DNA of 32,841 bases. Origin: Bacteroidia bacterium (GTDB lineage Bacteria > Bacteroidota > Bacteroidia > UKL13-3). A model generated the notes under the pieces. It did not search any database and was not told the origin of the DNA. It worked only from the letters and a program-made list of their open reading frames with translations. Location of the stretch: contig JALONP010000027.1 in NCBI GenBank assembly GCA_025454875.1, positions 1-32,841 of the forward strand. The letters run 5' to 3'. Both the position numbers and the translations under genes were made by a program. Positions 8,376 through 32,841 of this stretch are shown here, one piece after another (within the stretch, counting starts at the first letter, position 1; every line of letters starts with the position of its first letter).

Positions 8376-9155
8376 CTACCTGCCAGTAAACTGAGGTTTC
8401 CGTTTTTCAACGAATGCATTCATTCCTTCTTTTTGGTCGCTACTAGCAAAACACATGTAAAAGTTTTTACGTTCAAAATACAACCCTTCTTGCAATCCAC
8501 TATCAAACGCTTTGAGCACACTTTCTTTAGCTAAACGAACTGCCACTGGTGATTGAGCAGCCACTTCTGAAGCCAACTTCACTGCTTCTTCCAAATACAA
8601 TTCTTCGGGTACCACGCGGTTAATTAATCCTGCATCCAAAGCTTGCTCAGCTGTAATAAATTTACCAGTTAAAACCATTTCCATTGCCAATGCTTTGCCA
8701 ACTGCTTTGGTTAAACGTTGTGTTCCACCTGCACCAGGCATAATGGCTAATTTAATCTCGGGCTGACCAAATTTGGCGGTTTCACTGGCCACAATCATAT
8801 CGCAGGTCATAGCAAGTTCGCAACCACCTCCCAAGCAAAAACCACTTACAGCAGCAATCACAGGTTTTCTGGTTTTGCGAATTTGGTCCCAAGTTTCAAA
8901 CTGGTCTATTTTGAGCATGTCAATAGCCGTTCTATTTTCCATTTGTTTAATATCGGCACCTGCGGCAAAAGCCCTTTCGTTTCCAGTAATGATAATGCAG
9001 CGAATGTCATCTATTTGGTCAAATGTGGCCAACGCATGTTTAATTTCTTGCATCAACTGAAGGTTTAATGCATTCAGTTCTTTGGGGCGGTTAAGTTGAA
9101 TGAGCGCAATATGAGGCTTGTATGCGGCTTCGGTTAGAATGTATTCGTATTGCAT
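8376..9155 (-). CDS. Enoyl-CoA hydratase/isomerase (crotonase family)
   Basis: A 259-aa crotonase-fold enzyme, predicted to hydrate trans-2-enoyl-CoA in fatty-acid or amino-acid catabolism. The oxyanion-hole segments are FAAGADIKQM (~63-72) and SGFCLGGGCELAMTCD (~104-119). The two catalytic glutamates of true hydratases are present, Glu113 (GGGCE) and Glu133 (GQPEIKLAIMPGAGGTQRL). The C-terminal FYMCFASSDQKEGMNAFVEKRKPQFTGR is typical of short-chain enoyl-CoA hydratases. Having both Glu residues favours hydratase over decarboxylase or dehalogenase relatives, though chain-length preference cannot be read. No other beta-oxidation gene is adjacent. A TAnnTTTG box lies immediately upstream. Confidence 0.92.
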   Translation of the reverse strand: MQYEYILTEAAYKPHIALIQLNRPKELNALNLQLMQEIKHALATFDQIDDIRCIIITGNERAFAAGADIKQMENRTAIDMLKIDQFETWDQIRKTRKPVIAAVSGFCLGGGCELAMTCDMIVASETAKFGQPEIKLAIMPGAGGTQRLTKAVGKALAMEMVLTGKFITAEQALDAGLINRVVPEELYLEEAVKLASEVAAQSPVAVRLAKESVLKAFDSGLQEGLYFERKNFYMCFASSDQKEGMNAFVEKRKPQFTGR

Positions 9156-9170: not shown

Positions 9171-9202
9171 CAAAAATATTATTATATATTCGAATAACAC
9201 AA
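9171..9202 (-). promoter_or_regulatory. Putative promoter of the enoyl-CoA hydratase gene
   Basis: On the minus strand TTG (9202-9200) and TATTTTTG (9178-9171) are separated by 21 nt. The -7 box matches TAnnTTTG fully; the spacer is slightly long. The start codon is 16 nt downstream of the box. Confidence 0.42.
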
Positions 9203-9250
9203 TACTCACCATTATGAAAACAATTAATCACTTTCGCAATTTGACTAAAT

Positions 9251-9787
9251 TTGGTCTTAGAAACGTTCTCTTCTCTTCTTTTCTTTTCTTTCCTTTTCTT
9301 AATGCCCATAGTAGCATATTGCCAACCTGAGCAGCAACCGAGTCCAATTGGTTGTCCAACTTTTGTGCTTCCTTTTTGGCTTTCTATTTCGGGTGGTAAT
9401 CCTAATGGCGAATGGCCCGAGTTTGGTTTTGAAACAAAATATAAAGACTGCTATAATTGTATTGTTAAGAATCCTGGTGAAGTGAATGTATGCGAATACT
9501 ATAATCAGATAGGATCCCCTTGCCCAATTTGCTTTAATATCATCATGCTTACAGAGGTTTTTAATCCTCGATCGGGTAATTATGAAACTATTTACAAAGT
9601 GATTGAAACTACGAATGGGACTACCCATATTTGGTACACTTACGAAATTAAAAAGGTGCCTATTTACGCCACAGATGCAGATGGTAAAAAATGGGTAATT
9701 GGGTATAAATGGTATTGGAATATTATTCCACGTTTAACAGCCATTGAAACTACCCTAAACGGAGGACGAAGAATGATATTTGAATAA
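9251..9787 (+). CDS. Small Cys-rich secreted protein of unknown function, probably phase-variable
   Basis: Up to 178 aa in the open frame. The mature part (about 150 aa) has nine cysteines, including CYNCIVKNPGEVNVCEYY and SPCPICF, and aromatic beta-rich segments. I recognise no family. The N-terminus FFSFLFLMPIVAYCQPEQQ looks like a signal peptide, so it is probably exported. The start is anomalous: this frame has only a TTG (9251) upstream of the hydrophobic core. A good ATG at 9214 (MKTINHFRNLTKFGLRNVLF, ideal basic n-region) is in another frame and stops at 9328-9330. The two frames meet in a seven-unit TTCTY pentamer tract (9266-9300); one added unit or two lost units would join ATG 9214 to this protein. 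The next gene begins 8 nt after the stop, suggesting co-transcription. Confidence 0.68.
   Translation: MVLETFSSLLFFSFLFLMPIVAYCQPEQQPSPIGCPTFVLPFWLSISGGNPNGEWPEFGFETKYKDCYNCIVKNPGEVNVCEYYNQIGSPCPICFNIIMLTEVFNPRSGNYETIYKVIETTNGTTHIWYTYEIKKVPIYATDADGKKWVIGYKWYWNIIPRLTAIETTLNGGRRMIFE
9266..9300 (+). repeat. Pentanucleotide simple-sequence repeat (TTCTY)x7 inside a signal-peptide region
   Basis: Thirty-five consecutive pyrimidines divide exactly into seven 5-mers: TTCTC, TTCTC, TTCTT, TTCTT, TTCTT, TCCTT, TTCTT. A 5-bp unit is not a multiple of three, so slipped-strand gain or loss changes the reading frame. The tract lies between ATG 9214 and the long frame ending at 9787, which are currently out of register by one base. 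Confidence 0.85.
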
Positions 9788-9794
9788 ATGCGTT

Positions 9795-10802
9795 ATGAAA
9801 ACAGCCATTCTTATTATTTTGATTTTGTTGTTTGGTTCTATAAAAACAAACGCCCAATTCAATAACCACAAATTTACCCAATATGTGCAACCATTTAGCT
9901 ATTTAAGCCAACCCAAACACCTGTTGCATGATACACTTTGGTATGGCAGTTCATATTACAATACCTTGTATGGAGGCACATTGGTTAAGCCTTTGCTTGT
10001 GTTTTATACGGATACTTTTTTGTATTGGAATTTTGAATTGGCTTTAGGTACCATCACCTTGTATAATAAGCAGCCCTACAACACTGTTACTTTTGATTTT
10101 TGTAAATGTCGCATAAGGGAAATTAATAAACAGCCACCGTTTGCTTCGGAAATCAATTACCAATATGATTCCATTATTGGAGCGCACCAATTTGAATACC
10201 GCAATGTGGGTGTGGTTGATACCTTGGATCGACTTGCAGGTGCAGTGAATATGCAGATATGGTTTTACAACAATGGGGTTATTGAGTACCATTTTGGTCA
10301 GAATGAATCTAATACCTTAGGTTTCCTTAACATGAAGTTTTTTAGGTTCGGTTCTTTTTATTGGAGGCAAACAGACACTTCATCACTTGCTTATGTTAGT
10401 ATTTTGACAGAAGACCCATTAAGTCCAACTCATTTAAGATTGGATTTTGATGCTTATAGAGACTTGGCTCTTGCAAATAAGGTACACATAAATGGGTTCC
10501 CTCCAGAAGGTACTGTTTACCGATTTTCCCCACCTGCTACAGGGTTAAATGACAAACATACTAAATTCGTACCACCTATTCTTTCCCCCAACCCCGCCCA
10601 AACACAATTGCAAATTCAATTTGATTACCCTAACAATGTAAATCGCATAGTGGCAATTGATTCCAAAGGAGCACGAACGATATTGGATTTTGATATCCAA
10701 AATCAAACTTTGTTTGTTCAATCTTTGACCAATGGGCTGTATGTATTGGAAATGGAAACCGATGCAGGAGTCATTACCTCACGTTTGCTTATTCAACGAT
10801 AG
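9795..10802 (+). CDS. T9SS type-A cargo protein of unknown function
   Basis: A 335-aa secreted protein starting at ATG 9795 (MKTAILIILILLFGSIKTNAQ signal peptide); an in-frame TTG at 9780 overlaps the upstream gene and is less likely. The last ~75 residues (PPILSPNPAQTQLQIQF ... NGLYVLEMETDAGVITSRLLIQR) form a type-A T9SS sorting domain with its usual SPNPA start, G-LY-LE and K/R-rich end. The central ~230 residues are beta-rich and aromatic; segments such as AGAVNMQIWFYNNGVIEYHFG resemble jelly-roll-like domains often found in front of type-A sorting signals, but no ligand can be named. It follows the Cys-rich secreted gene by 8 nt, so the pair is probably one transcript and the upstream phase switch could affect its translation by polarity. 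Confidence 0.85.
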   Translation: MKTAILIILILLFGSIKTNAQFNNHKFTQYVQPFSYLSQPKHLLHDTLWYGSSYYNTLYGGTLVKPLLVFYTDTFLYWNFELALGTITLYNKQPYNTVTFDFCKCRIREINKQPPFASEINYQYDSIIGAHQFEYRNVGVVDTLDRLAGAVNMQIWFYNNGVIEYHFGQNESNTLGFLNMKFFRFGSFYWRQTDTSSLAYVSILTEDPLSPTHLRLDFDAYRDLALANKVHINGFPPEGTVYRFSPPATGLNDKHTKFVPPILSPNPAQTQLQIQFDYPNNVNRIVAIDSKGARTILDFDIQNQTLFVQSLTNGLYVLEMETDAGVITSRLLIQR

Positions 10803-24259: not shown

Positions 24260-24411
24260 GTTCTTTAATATGATGCCCGGGTGGTGGAATTGTTCCGAAA
24301 AACCAAGCAGCTTGCGCTGTAGTTTTTCGTGAATCCGCGAAGCAGAGCGAAATCGAAGATTTCGATTGCTTCGGGAGTAGACAAACGAATGTACTTCACT
24401 GCCTGGATTTT
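24260..24411 (+). repeat. 152-bp tandem unit 1 carrying a tRNA-Leu 5' fragment
   Basis: Starts with GTTCTTTAATAT and then the first 18 nt of tRNA-Leu (GCCCGGGTGGTGGAATTG at 24275-24292). Two strong hairpins follow. Hairpin 1 (24293-24333) has stem CGAAAAAC/GTTTTTCG extended by TTC/GAA past a one-base bulge, with inner CAGC/GCTG. Hairpin 2 (24334-24376) has AATCGAA-GAT-TTCGATT inside CGAAGC/GCTTCG. No coding content is credible, and 152 is not a multiple of three. Confidence 0.9.
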
Positions 24412-24563
24412 GTTCTTTAATATGATGCCCGGGTGGTGGAATTGTTCCGAAAAACCAAGCAGCTTGCGCTGTAGTTTTTCGAGAATCCGCGAAGCAGAGC
24501 GAAATCGAAGATTTCGATTGCTTCGGGAGTAGACACACAAATGTACTTCACTGCCTGGATTTT
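24412..24563 (+). repeat. 152-bp tandem unit 2 carrying a tRNA-Leu 5' fragment
   Basis: Differs from unit 1 at three positions only (about 98% identity): one in the unpaired bulge of hairpin 1 and two in the spacer after hairpin 2. Both hairpin stems are preserved. It again contains the first 18 nt of tRNA-Leu, at 24427-24444. Confidence 0.9.
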
Positions 24564-24596
24564 GTTCTTTAATATGATGCCCGGGTGGTGGAATTG
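24564..24596 (+). repeat. Partial third unit merging into the real tRNA-Leu
   Basis: The 33 nt starting GTTCTTTAATAT are identical to the start of units 1 and 2. From 24597 the sequence continues as an intact tRNA-Leu instead of the hairpin segment. Confidence 0.9.
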
Positions 24597-24663
24597 GTAG
24601 ACACGCAGGACTTAAAATCCTGTGTCCTTTAAAGACGTGCGGGTTCAAGTCCCGCCCCGGGTA
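24579..24663 (+). tRNA. tRNA-Leu (anticodon TAA)
   Basis: An 85-nt class II tRNA. The acceptor stem GCCCGGG/CCCGGGT has a terminal G-T wobble, with a D arm (GTGGAATTGGTAGACACG). The anticodon stem CAGGA/TCCTG has loop CTTAAAA, giving anticodon TAA. The variable arm is TGTCCTTTAAAGACG and the T arm GCGGG-TTCAAGT-CCCGC. The next three bases are CTA rather than CCA, so CCA must be added post-transcriptionally or was altered when DNA integrated at the 3' end. A tyrosine recombinase gene follows, making the 3' half the presumed att core. Confidence 0.95.
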
Positions 24664-24721
24664 CTAAATCAAGGTTCTGATTTTCAGAACCTTACAAACA
24701 GAAAAAAAAGCGGAAAAGGGC

Positions 24722-24742
24722 TATCGTCAGCCTTATCGTCAG
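24722..24742 (+). repeat. Two TATCGTCAG direct repeats, 12-bp period
   Basis: TATCGTCAG occurs at 24722-24730 and 24734-24742, between the tRNA-Leu 3' end and the recombinase start. Position and spacing fit arm-type or accessory binding sites of a tyrosine recombinase, but this is inference. They also lie within the open frame upstream of the chosen start. Confidence 0.45.
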
Positions 24743-24744
24743 TT

Positions 24745-25983
24745 GTGAAAACTCCTATTTATCCGTTCAAACCTGCAACCCTTGTCATTCCTGCTCCTTC
24801 CAGTAAAAACCAAAGCTGGTTAATCAAATTCTACGTTTGGCATGTCGGGAAACAAAAACTCGAAATGCAACGCGATTATGAATGCAACTATATTAAGGAT
24901 ATAGAGCAACGAAAAAAGTGGTGTAAACAGCGAATAAAGGAGATAAATGTATTATTAAGTACCGGGGTTTATATTGATGATTCTTCTGAAGGATTTCAAG
25001 CAACAACACCAGTCCAAAACTCCTTACCTCAAAATCCAATTCAGCAACCCACTTACAACCATATTGAACATGGAATGTCGGTTCCAACAATTATTGAAGG
25101 TATTGACCTTACCTTAAAGGAAAAGAGGGGGCTGAAACACTTTAGGGACTATAACCAAAAGCTGAACAAATTTAAGGATTGGATATATGAATTTGGTCTA
25201 CAAGGACACAGTTTAACCAGTTTCTCACATAAGTACATTAAGCAGTTTATTGAAAGCTTAAAACAGGATGGTTTGCAAACAAGAACCATTAATAACTACA
25301 TCAACACTATCGGTTTAGTTTTTAATACCTATAATGAACAAGAGGATAATGAGAATACAGTAAAGAATCCGATTGAAAAGATAAAAAAGGACAAGAACCC
25401 CAAAGGAAAGAATATTGCTTTTGTTCAGGAACAACAAAAGAAAATTCTCGAGTTTATAGCCCAATCAAATTTCCCGCATTACGAACTGATTAGCATAACC
25501 ATGTTTTATACGCTTGCCCGAACCAAAGAACTATCATATTTGCAACCTTGGATGATAGGAGCTAAACAACATGACCAAATCCATTTCCCGGCTGAAATAT
25601 GTAAGAATGGAATTGAAAAGAATGTTACAATTACAGATGAACTGGAGGAAATTTTTACCAAATACCGTATTCGTGAACTTCCCAAAAATTGGTATGTATT
25701 TGGCAAAGGACTAAAACCGGGTTCTGAACATTACAACGAAAAATTTATTGGTACTCGCTATCGAGAAAATGTACTTGACAAATTGGATTTCTCAATGGAC
25801 TATACCCTTTATAGCTGGAAGCACACAGGAGTATGTATGTATTACTTGAATGGAGTATCTGTTGCGCTACTCATGATGCAAGCAGGTTGGGAAGACCCCC
25901 ATACATTTAAGAAATATTTAAAAAGCCTTGGTCTTTTTGATAACACTGAAATAAAGGCCAAAAGCCCTAAACTTCCGATGTAA
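24745..25983 (+). CDS. Tyrosine recombinase/integrase of a tRNA-Leu-targeting element
   Basis: About 412 aa from GTG 24745; the frame is open back into the tRNA, but those residues only translate the tRNA and att DNA. The N-terminal arm-binding domain (~1-75) has SWLIKFYVWHVGKQKLEMQR and the ERxKWCKQRIKEINVLLSTG helix. The SAM-like core-binding domain is at ~135-230. The catalytic domain has Arg in FYTLARTKELSYL, then KNGIEKNVTIT, then LYSWKHTGVCMYYLNGVS, AGWEDPHTFKKYLKSLG with the presumptive nucleophile Tyr. Compared with the canonical H-x-x-R-H...H, this protein has Tyr-Ser-Trp-Lys-His and Trp, so Arg II is Lys. It sits right after tRNA-Leu, the usual site for an integrated element. A strong hairpin terminator follows. 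Confidence 0.88.
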   Translation: MKTPIYPFKPATLVIPAPSSKNQSWLIKFYVWHVGKQKLEMQRDYECNYIKDIEQRKKWCKQRIKEINVLLSTGVYIDDSSEGFQATTPVQNSLPQNPIQQPTYNHIEHGMSVPTIIEGIDLTLKEKRGLKHFRDYNQKLNKFKDWIYEFGLQGHSLTSFSHKYIKQFIESLKQDGLQTRTINNYINTIGLVFNTYNEQEDNENTVKNPIEKIKKDKNPKGKNIAFVQEQQKKILEFIAQSNFPHYELISITMFYTLARTKELSYLQPWMIGAKQHDQIHFPAEICKNGIEKNVTITDELEEIFTKYRIRELPKNWYVFGKGLKPGSEHYNEKFIGTRYRENVLDKLDFSMDYTLYSWKHTGVCMYYLNGVSVALLMMQAGWEDPHTFKKYLKSLGLFDNTEIKAKSPKLPM

Positions 25984-31286: not shown

Positions 31287-32841
31287 TTAACAATCAATCA
31301 CTTCCCATTTATTGGTATCATGTTCGTAAAGTATCTGAGCCGATTTTCCTATCAGGATATTCTTTATAGGAATTTCATCCAAGTCCTGAACCATTAGTGT
31401 ACCATGACCACCTTCTGTTTCTGTATTTTTAATGGTAAAACACATAGAGGTTGTCGGAACATCAAGATAAACTTTTTTTTCACTACCTCCCGGATTAAAT
31501 AAGTAAAAGTTATTATGAACAGGGGTAAACGTGTAATCTTCTGTTAAGTCCTGCCTTTGGATAGAAACCGTACCAGTATCTCCACCGCCTGAATTGCCTT
31601 TGTATTGCACCCAAAGGCCGTCAAAAGTGGATTGGCTTATGTCAGTAGGTTCAGTCGCCTGAAACAGTGCAATGAAGTTTTTATTCGGGTCGAACGTGGC
31701 CGTGTATCCGTTTCCTCCGGCATCATCAGCATAAGCAATGTATAGAAAAGCATTCTGCCCGTTCAGTCCGTTTGAACCATCTGAGCCATTAGTACCGTTT
31801 ACTCCAGCTTGCCCTTTATAATTAAACCAAAGGCCGTTAAAATCACTTTGCACAGGTGTTAATGGCACGGTTGAAGTCTTGATAGCAATGTAGTTTTTAC
31901 CTGCGTTAAAAGCGATTGTAAAGCCTGTTCCTGTATTGCTATCGGCATAGGCAATATACACATAGGCACTTTGTCCGTTTAAACCATTTGTGCCGTTAGT
32001 GCCGTTAATTCCGGGTTCACCCTTATATTTAAACCAAAGCCCTGCAAAATCTCCCTGAACTGGTGTTAGTGGTACAGTTGAACTTTTGATAGCAATATAA
32101 TTCTGCACTCCTGTAAAAGCCGTTGTAAAGCCACTACCTGCTGCATCATTGGCATATCCAATGTACACATATGCGCTCTGTCCGTTCAATCCGTTTATAC
32201 CATTGGCTCCCGTGTTGCCCTGTTGTCCTTTATAATTAAACCAACGTCCTGCAAAATCTCCCTGTACAGGCGTAAGCGGAACGGTTGAACTTCTGATAGC
32301 AATAAAGTTTTTTGCTGGGTTAAAAACAGTAGTAAAACCAGCACCGTTATTGTCATCTGCATAGGCAATATATACGTATGCGCTCTGTCCGTTTTGCCCT
32401 GCAACTCCATCATCACCCTTATACTTTGTCCAGTAACCTGCAAAAGTTCCAGGATCCTGACCGTCCATTTCCCAAGTGGTGTGCCTTATGGCAATGTAAC
32501 TTTTATGAGGGTCGAATACTTCACTGAATCCGTCTCCGTTTTCATCATCTGCATACCCTACATACACAAATGCACTTTGCCCGTCTTTTCCGTCCGCTCC
32601 ATCGGCTCCGTCCGCTCCGTTGTTACCATTGTTGCCGGGGTCGCCTTTTTGCCCCTTGTAGTTAAACCACAGCCCGACAAAATCTGCCTGAACGGGTGTA
32701 ATAGGGTTAGAGGTATGTTTGATAGCTATATAATTTTTAGCAGGGCTGAATACTGTAGTAAACCCGTTTCCATTTGCATCATCGGCATAAGCGATATTCA
32801 GGTATGCATTTACACCTGAACCGGATTCATCGGCTGCTATC
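31287..32841 (-). CDS. Collagen-like modular repeat protein, N-terminus beyond the right edge
   Basis: Open in one frame for 518 codons to the window edge, so the 5' end is missing. It has six modules of about 69-72 aa. Each has a globular part (QSAYVYIAYADDNNGAGFTT ... NFIAIRSSTVPLTPVQGDF) ending in W.NYKG, and then a Gly-X-Y collagen-like linker (GNTGANGINGLNG, GINGTNGTNGLNG, GADGADGADGADGKDG). The three central modules repeat at DNA level with an exact 207-bp period. The C-terminal ~100 residues (VSIQRQDLTEDYTFTPVHNN ... KSAQILYEHDTNKWEVIDC) form a distinct beta-rich domain. The layout resembles phage tail-fibre or surface stalk proteins; which one applies here cannot be decided from the window. 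Confidence 0.82.
   Translation of the reverse strand, partial: IAADESGSGVNAYLNIAYADDANGNGFTTVFSPAKNYIAIKHTSNPITPVQADFVGLWFNYKGQKGDPGNNGNNGADGADGADGKDGQSAFVYVGYADDENGDGFSEVFDPHKSYIAIRHTTWEMDGQDPGTFAGYWTKYKGDDGVAGQNGQSAYVYIAYADDNNGAGFTTVFNPAKNFIAIRSSTVPLTPVQGDFAGRWFNYKGQQGNTGANGINGLNGQSAYVYIGYANDAAGSGFTTAFTGVQNYIAIKSSTVPLTPVQGDFAGLWFKYKGEPGINGTNGTNGLNGQSAYVYIAYADSNTGTGFTIAFNAGKNYIAIKTSTVPLTPVQSDFNGLWFNYKGQAGVNGTNGSDGSNGLNGQNAFLYIAYADDAGGNGYTATFDPNKNFIALFQATEPTDISQSTFDGLWVQYKGNSGGGDTGTVSIQRQDLTEDYTFTPVHNNFYLFNPGGSEKKVYLDVPTTSMCFTIKNTETEGGHGTLMVQDLDEIPIKNILIGKSAQILYEHDTNKWEVIDC

Follow-up and report, generated by a model that had tools for sequence, protein, structure and literature searches.

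A putative opa-like phase switch in the signal-peptide coding region of a gene for a predicted secreted protein of a Bacteroidia bacterium

Reading frames, repeat tract and neighbouring genes

The window, i.e., the whole stretch of 32,841 nucleotides analysed here, carries a gene for a predicted secreted protein between a divergent enoyl-CoA hydratase gene and a gene with a T9SS sorting domain (Table 1). No Pfam family was matched above the cut-off by the 178-aa protein, and its AlphaFold model (pLDDT 48) was too poor for a fold search. When checked on the sequence, the frame of ATG 9214 translates as MKTINHFRNLTKFGLRNVLFSSFLFFPFLNAHSSILPT and ends at TGA 9328-9330. This leading ORF likely holds the proper start and the basic n-region of the signal peptide, out of register with the body. 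TTG 9251 was confirmed as the sole canonical start of the long frame 5' of the hydrophobic core, and a start at this codon gives an n-region without any basic residue. The two frames cross within the pentamer tract. The long frame is offset by +1 from ATG 9214, and register is regained by adding one pentamer or removing two. An earlier note on this DNA had described a basic n-region with an early stop, a 178-aa frame one frame away without an ATG before the core, and the arithmetic of restoration, and all three were confirmed on the sequence.

The consensus of the Bacteroidetes -7 element is TAnnTTTG. A candidate element, TATATTCG, stands 21 nt 5' of ATG 9214, and a comparable -7-like element was found approximately 23 nt 5' of the ATG in the orthologue of strain UKL13-3 (locus L002).

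Table 1. Features of the locus in the window, and signal-peptide repeat arrays of other Bacteroidia genes
Feature	Position	Strand	Basis or register of the body
Divergent enoyl-CoA hydratase gene	8376..9155	-	same neighbour in UKL13-3
Candidate -7 element	9185..9192	+	sequence reading, putative; one mismatch to TAnnTTTG
Short leading ORF, 38 aa, stop TGA	9214..9330	+	reading frames
Long frame, predicted secreted protein of 178 aa from TTG 9251	9245..9787	+	open after TGA 9242-9244, to TAA 9785-9787
Imperfect pentamer array in the signal-peptide core, 35 bp	9266..9300	+	sequence, periodicity
In-frame ATG where the hydrophobic core ends; product without signal peptide	9302..9304	+	sequence
Downstream gene, T9SS C-terminal sorting domain (Por_Secre_tail PF18962)	9795..10802	+	profile match
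G074 (L056, C38), (CTCTT)9			out of register, offset other than +1
G024 (L057, C71), (CTCTT)4			out of register, +1
G083 (L058, C8), (CTCTT)6			out of register, +1; short body, weak case
G084 (L083, L092; C98), (CTTTT)3			L083 out of register, not +1; three pure units, weak case
G067 (L069, C19), (CTTT)8			in frame
G224 (L106), outside the family, long CT array in the signal-peptide region			out of frame, not +1
G284 (L109), outside the family, long CT array in the signal-peptide region			out of frame, not +1
G264 (L124), outside the family, CCCTT array in the signal-peptide region			in frame

The tract consists of seven units, in order two TTCTC, three TTCTT, one TCCTT and one TTCTT. It therefore holds three unit types, with at most about three identical units in a row, and pure repetition extends for no more than 14 bp in the TTCTC type and 16 bp in the TTCTT type. 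The earlier note had counted seven TTCTY pentamers; the number and the position stand, but the TCCTT unit is not TTCTY. Slippage should be rare in impure arrays with so few consecutive identical units, and a low present rate is to be expected in the window strain.

In the whole 2.98 Mb genome, the tract was the only site of four TTCTY units at 0 or 1 mismatch. The other genome-level statistics on the tract come from a sample of approximately 400 kb per genome. No pyrimidine/purine run in a 395-kb sample exceeded the tract (35, the next being 25), which was also one of two 35-bp sites with at least 90% periodicity (periods 4, 5, 7, and 8; 392 kb). Its periodicity score of 0.90 compares with a maximum of 0.78 in the first 120 nt of 367 sampled ORFs of at least 100 aa. 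Pyrimidine-rich signal peptides were found in 48 of 295 genomes of the class. Because they are common, T/C bias alone is no evidence for a switch, and pyrimidine runs as such were rejected as evidence.

The downstream T9SS gene starts from an ATG of its own, which lies 7 nt past the stop of the secreted-protein gene, where the earlier note had given 8 nt. In UKL13-3 the gap is 1 nt. Conserved adjacency is the sole basis of the idea that the T9SS gene is co-regulated via polarity or translational coupling, which is plausible. Elsewhere in the window, a 152-bp direct repeat occurs in roughly two copies, 98% alike, at positions 24260-24596, just ahead of an integrase-like gene (24622-25983, labelled from ORF reading). 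A gene on the minus strand (31287-32840), which runs off the contig end, contains 207-bp coding repeats at 31786-32393 with collagen-like Gly-rich linkers.

The orthologue in UKL13-3

The gene was found in one other genome of 64 family genomes, Bacteroidetes bacterium UKL13-3 (CP012155.1, G001), which was the only other genome of the same genus examined. No homologues beyond UKL13-3 were found in the family and order searches (64 genomes), and a plasmid search gave no match. A match in genome G004 (L003) was discarded as chance similarity to an ABC transporter. The UKL13-3 gene is flanked by the same enoyl-CoA hydratase and T9SS-tail genes, i.e., synteny holds on both sides. The two secreted proteins are about 43-47% identical, and a signal peptide is visible in the sequence of both, next to a neighbour with a T9SS sorting domain.

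In the orthologue, a pure (ACAA)9 array at 1389-1425, near 1104893-1104929 of CP012155.1, comes after ATG 1377 and precedes the hydrophobic core and the body. The ATG frame meets a stop, and the body is offset by +1, so that 8 or 11 ACAA units (-1 or +2 tetramers) place it in register. Both species thus have an array of units that are not multiples of three between the start codon and the body, and the comparison with a related genome that the earlier note had proposed revealed a perfect repeat, also out of register. The frame break is the same and the repeat is different, a tetramer in the n-region of UKL13-3 versus a pentamer in the core of the window gene. In both genes, a change of whole units shifts the body into or out of the ATG register, and no stops lie within the array. 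It is very unlikely that this shared architecture and frame break arose in two species by chance. UKL13-3 was the only case of this kind of array among 62 family genomes, and no other tetranucleotide arrays of at least 18 bp were found in a 400-kb sample of its genome.

Comparison of the N-termini, likewise proposed before, showed that the body frame of L002 has no ATG, GTG or TTG before TTG 1642, approximately 90 codons in; a start like TTG 9251 was not seen there. Over 130 codons of the body, dN was 0.54 and dS 1.99 (NG86), with dS saturated and the ratio only indicative. The changes gather at third positions, stops are absent, and conservation is seen in the cysteine motifs and the C-terminal half. 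A gene long OFF should not have kept this constraint, so that ON phases probably occur, either in a fraction of the population or for some of the time.

The UKL13-3 genome comes from a co-culture of Upper Klamath Lake and was assembled with HGAP from PacBio reads alone at 112x, and in Copco Reservoir the strain had approximately 151x Illumina coverage (PMC5248499). It also holds an intergenic-looking heptamer array (CTATCAT / CTATTAA) of approximately 150 bp at L016:6405-6560.

Arrays in other Bacteroidia genes

Arrays soon after ATGAAA, in the signal-peptide region, were found in other genes of the family, which are of secreted type and unrelated to the window gene, and comparable loci lie outside the family (Table 1). 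These loci were found via pyrimidine patterns and therefore give neither a full count nor estimates free of bias. Among ten loci, i.e., the window, G001 and eight others, the body was in frame at two (G067 and G264), where random phase expects one third; this is unremarkable and compatible with random phase. At the eight OFF loci the two offsets were equally frequent, L056, L083, L106 and L109 having an offset other than that of the window.

G024 and G084 each encode a Peptidase_S74-type protein, and these orthologues are 97% identical. The tracts of the two are of different unit types and 8 bp apart in length, and each body stands in a wrong frame of its own. In G032, a homologue with 50% identity (L100) is repeat-free and in frame from the corresponding ATG, and thus marks the true start of the S74-type gene. 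In contig C98 of G084 the gene is present twice, approximately 3.9 kb apart (L083 at 13364 and L092 at 17229), and the copies share an identical block of approximately 1.2 kb around the ATG and the repeat.

The pattern ATGAAA-N0-30-(CTCTT)4 was not found in 395 genomes of the class, of which only 16 came from the family with no known positives among them. L118 was rejected as a repeat-bearing gene since its array sits between genes, and the array of L067 was hexamer-like and frame-neutral. At L046 (G000:C13, minus strand, 13833), a CoA-transferase-like ORF, labelled from reading, has an in-frame ATG further upstream with a CATCATCT-type repeat just behind it. What reads as coding there is probably an untranslated leader.

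It stands at about an even chance that Bacteroidia hold widespread, so far undescribed opa-like contingency genes of secreted or T9SS-associated type. Their slippage-prone arrays (CTCTT, CTTTT, CTTT, ACAA, CT, and CCCTT) in the signal-peptide coding region would have arisen independently on repeated occasions, and would be replaced from species to species within a given gene, as at this locus.

Phase switching and other explanations

The locus is likely a translational phase switch of the opa kind, in which a simple sequence repeat in the signal-peptide coding region sets expression and the sequenced state is OFF. Translation would begin at ATG 9214, and the repeat number would set the frame of the ribosome, i.e., the secreted-protein frame when ON and the early stop when OFF. 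Slipped-strand mispairing at replication would alter the unit number. Slippage, its reversibility, the ON product and an effect on the downstream T9SS gene are all predicted. The array of the window has collected point differences and is probably slow or frozen OFF now, with UKL13-3 keeping a pure, presumably fast array.

Against a switch stand the impure tract of the window, the single orthologue, and the independent gain or turnover that different repeats need. As for hypermutability, at most about three identical consecutive units in the window compare with nine pure units in the orthologue. Differences in repeat number were seen between species only, e.g., the 8-bp difference between G024 and G084. 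The earlier note's view of a contingency locus was thus supported in its architecture, by the out-of-register (ACAA)9 of the orthologue and the arrays elsewhere, but the interrupted tract speaks against fast switching here. It is fairly probable that the gene is a contingency gene now or was one recently in this genus, and fast switching in this strain is doubtful.

An ordinary frameshift in a pseudogene or decaying gene, i.e., a base or unit lost by chance without any switch, is an improbable alternative. The impure, OFF tract would suit such decay, as would the presence of the gene in two genomes and its absence from the rest of the family. However, the frame break of the orthologue lies in the same interval within a pure repeat, and both bodies are open and conserved, where a long-OFF gene should have collected stops.

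Still less probable is a sequencing or assembly error that hides a constant, in-frame gene. The same interval would have to be in error in both genomes despite their different repeats, and most of the similar arrays in several other genomes are likewise out of register. The T-rich tract is error-prone and the assembly of UKL13-3 comes from PacBio reads only, yet the pure (ACAA)9 remains a slippage site regardless.

Least probable, by a little, is a constitutive product from another start, TTG 9251 or ATG 9302, which are in frame, or from ribosomal frameshifting on a slippery tract, for which the +1 offset at four of the five OFF loci that were examined first would speak. The non-basic n-region from TTG 9251, the lack of starts before position 1642 in the body frame of L002 and the ATG start of the repeat-free L100 speak against such a product, and the equal offsets at eight OFF loci, with L069 and L124 in frame, are not explained by a programmed shift in one direction.

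The phase-switch reading has its closest model in Neisseria opa, where CTCTT repeats in the leader-peptide region drive the switch (PMC3960869, PMC5354566). As in opa, pentamers of this kind lie in the hydrophobic core of a signal peptide, two of those in the window gene being exact CTCTT units; the unit number sets the register with the ATG, and the product is predicted to be secreted or at the surface. Unlike opa, the array is impure, and the protein and phylum are unrelated. Opa is an outer-membrane protein, whereas the window gene predicts a secreted protein that contains Cys residues, and has a T9SS cargo gene next to it. Membership of the Opa family was rejected, as no Pfam family was matched above the cut-off.

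A general precedent is given by the phase-variable genes with tetranucleotide repeats of Haemophilus influenzae (PMC2651432). Phase variation through a like tetranucleotide array, (ACAA)9, is proposed for the orthologue, but its gene is unrelated, and the repeat stands ahead of a signal-peptide core in a member of the Bacteroidota.

In Bacteroidota, invertible DNA is the main known route to phase variation. The available part of a 2025 review names Bacteroides for invertible DNA only, which is inverted by recombinases (PMC11868660). The stochastic ON/OFF of surface or secreted functions in Bacteroidota would be shared with the present locus, but a change of repeat length is proposed here instead of an inversion. 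No case of phase variation by simple sequence repeats in Bacteroidota or T9SS genes was described in the literature searched, which is weak evidence of absence. If the switch is true, a contingency mechanism would have evolved convergently beyond the host-adapted pathogens, in a lineage linked to blooms of freshwater cyanobacteria, with a repeat unit of the opa kind in one species and another repeat in its sister species.
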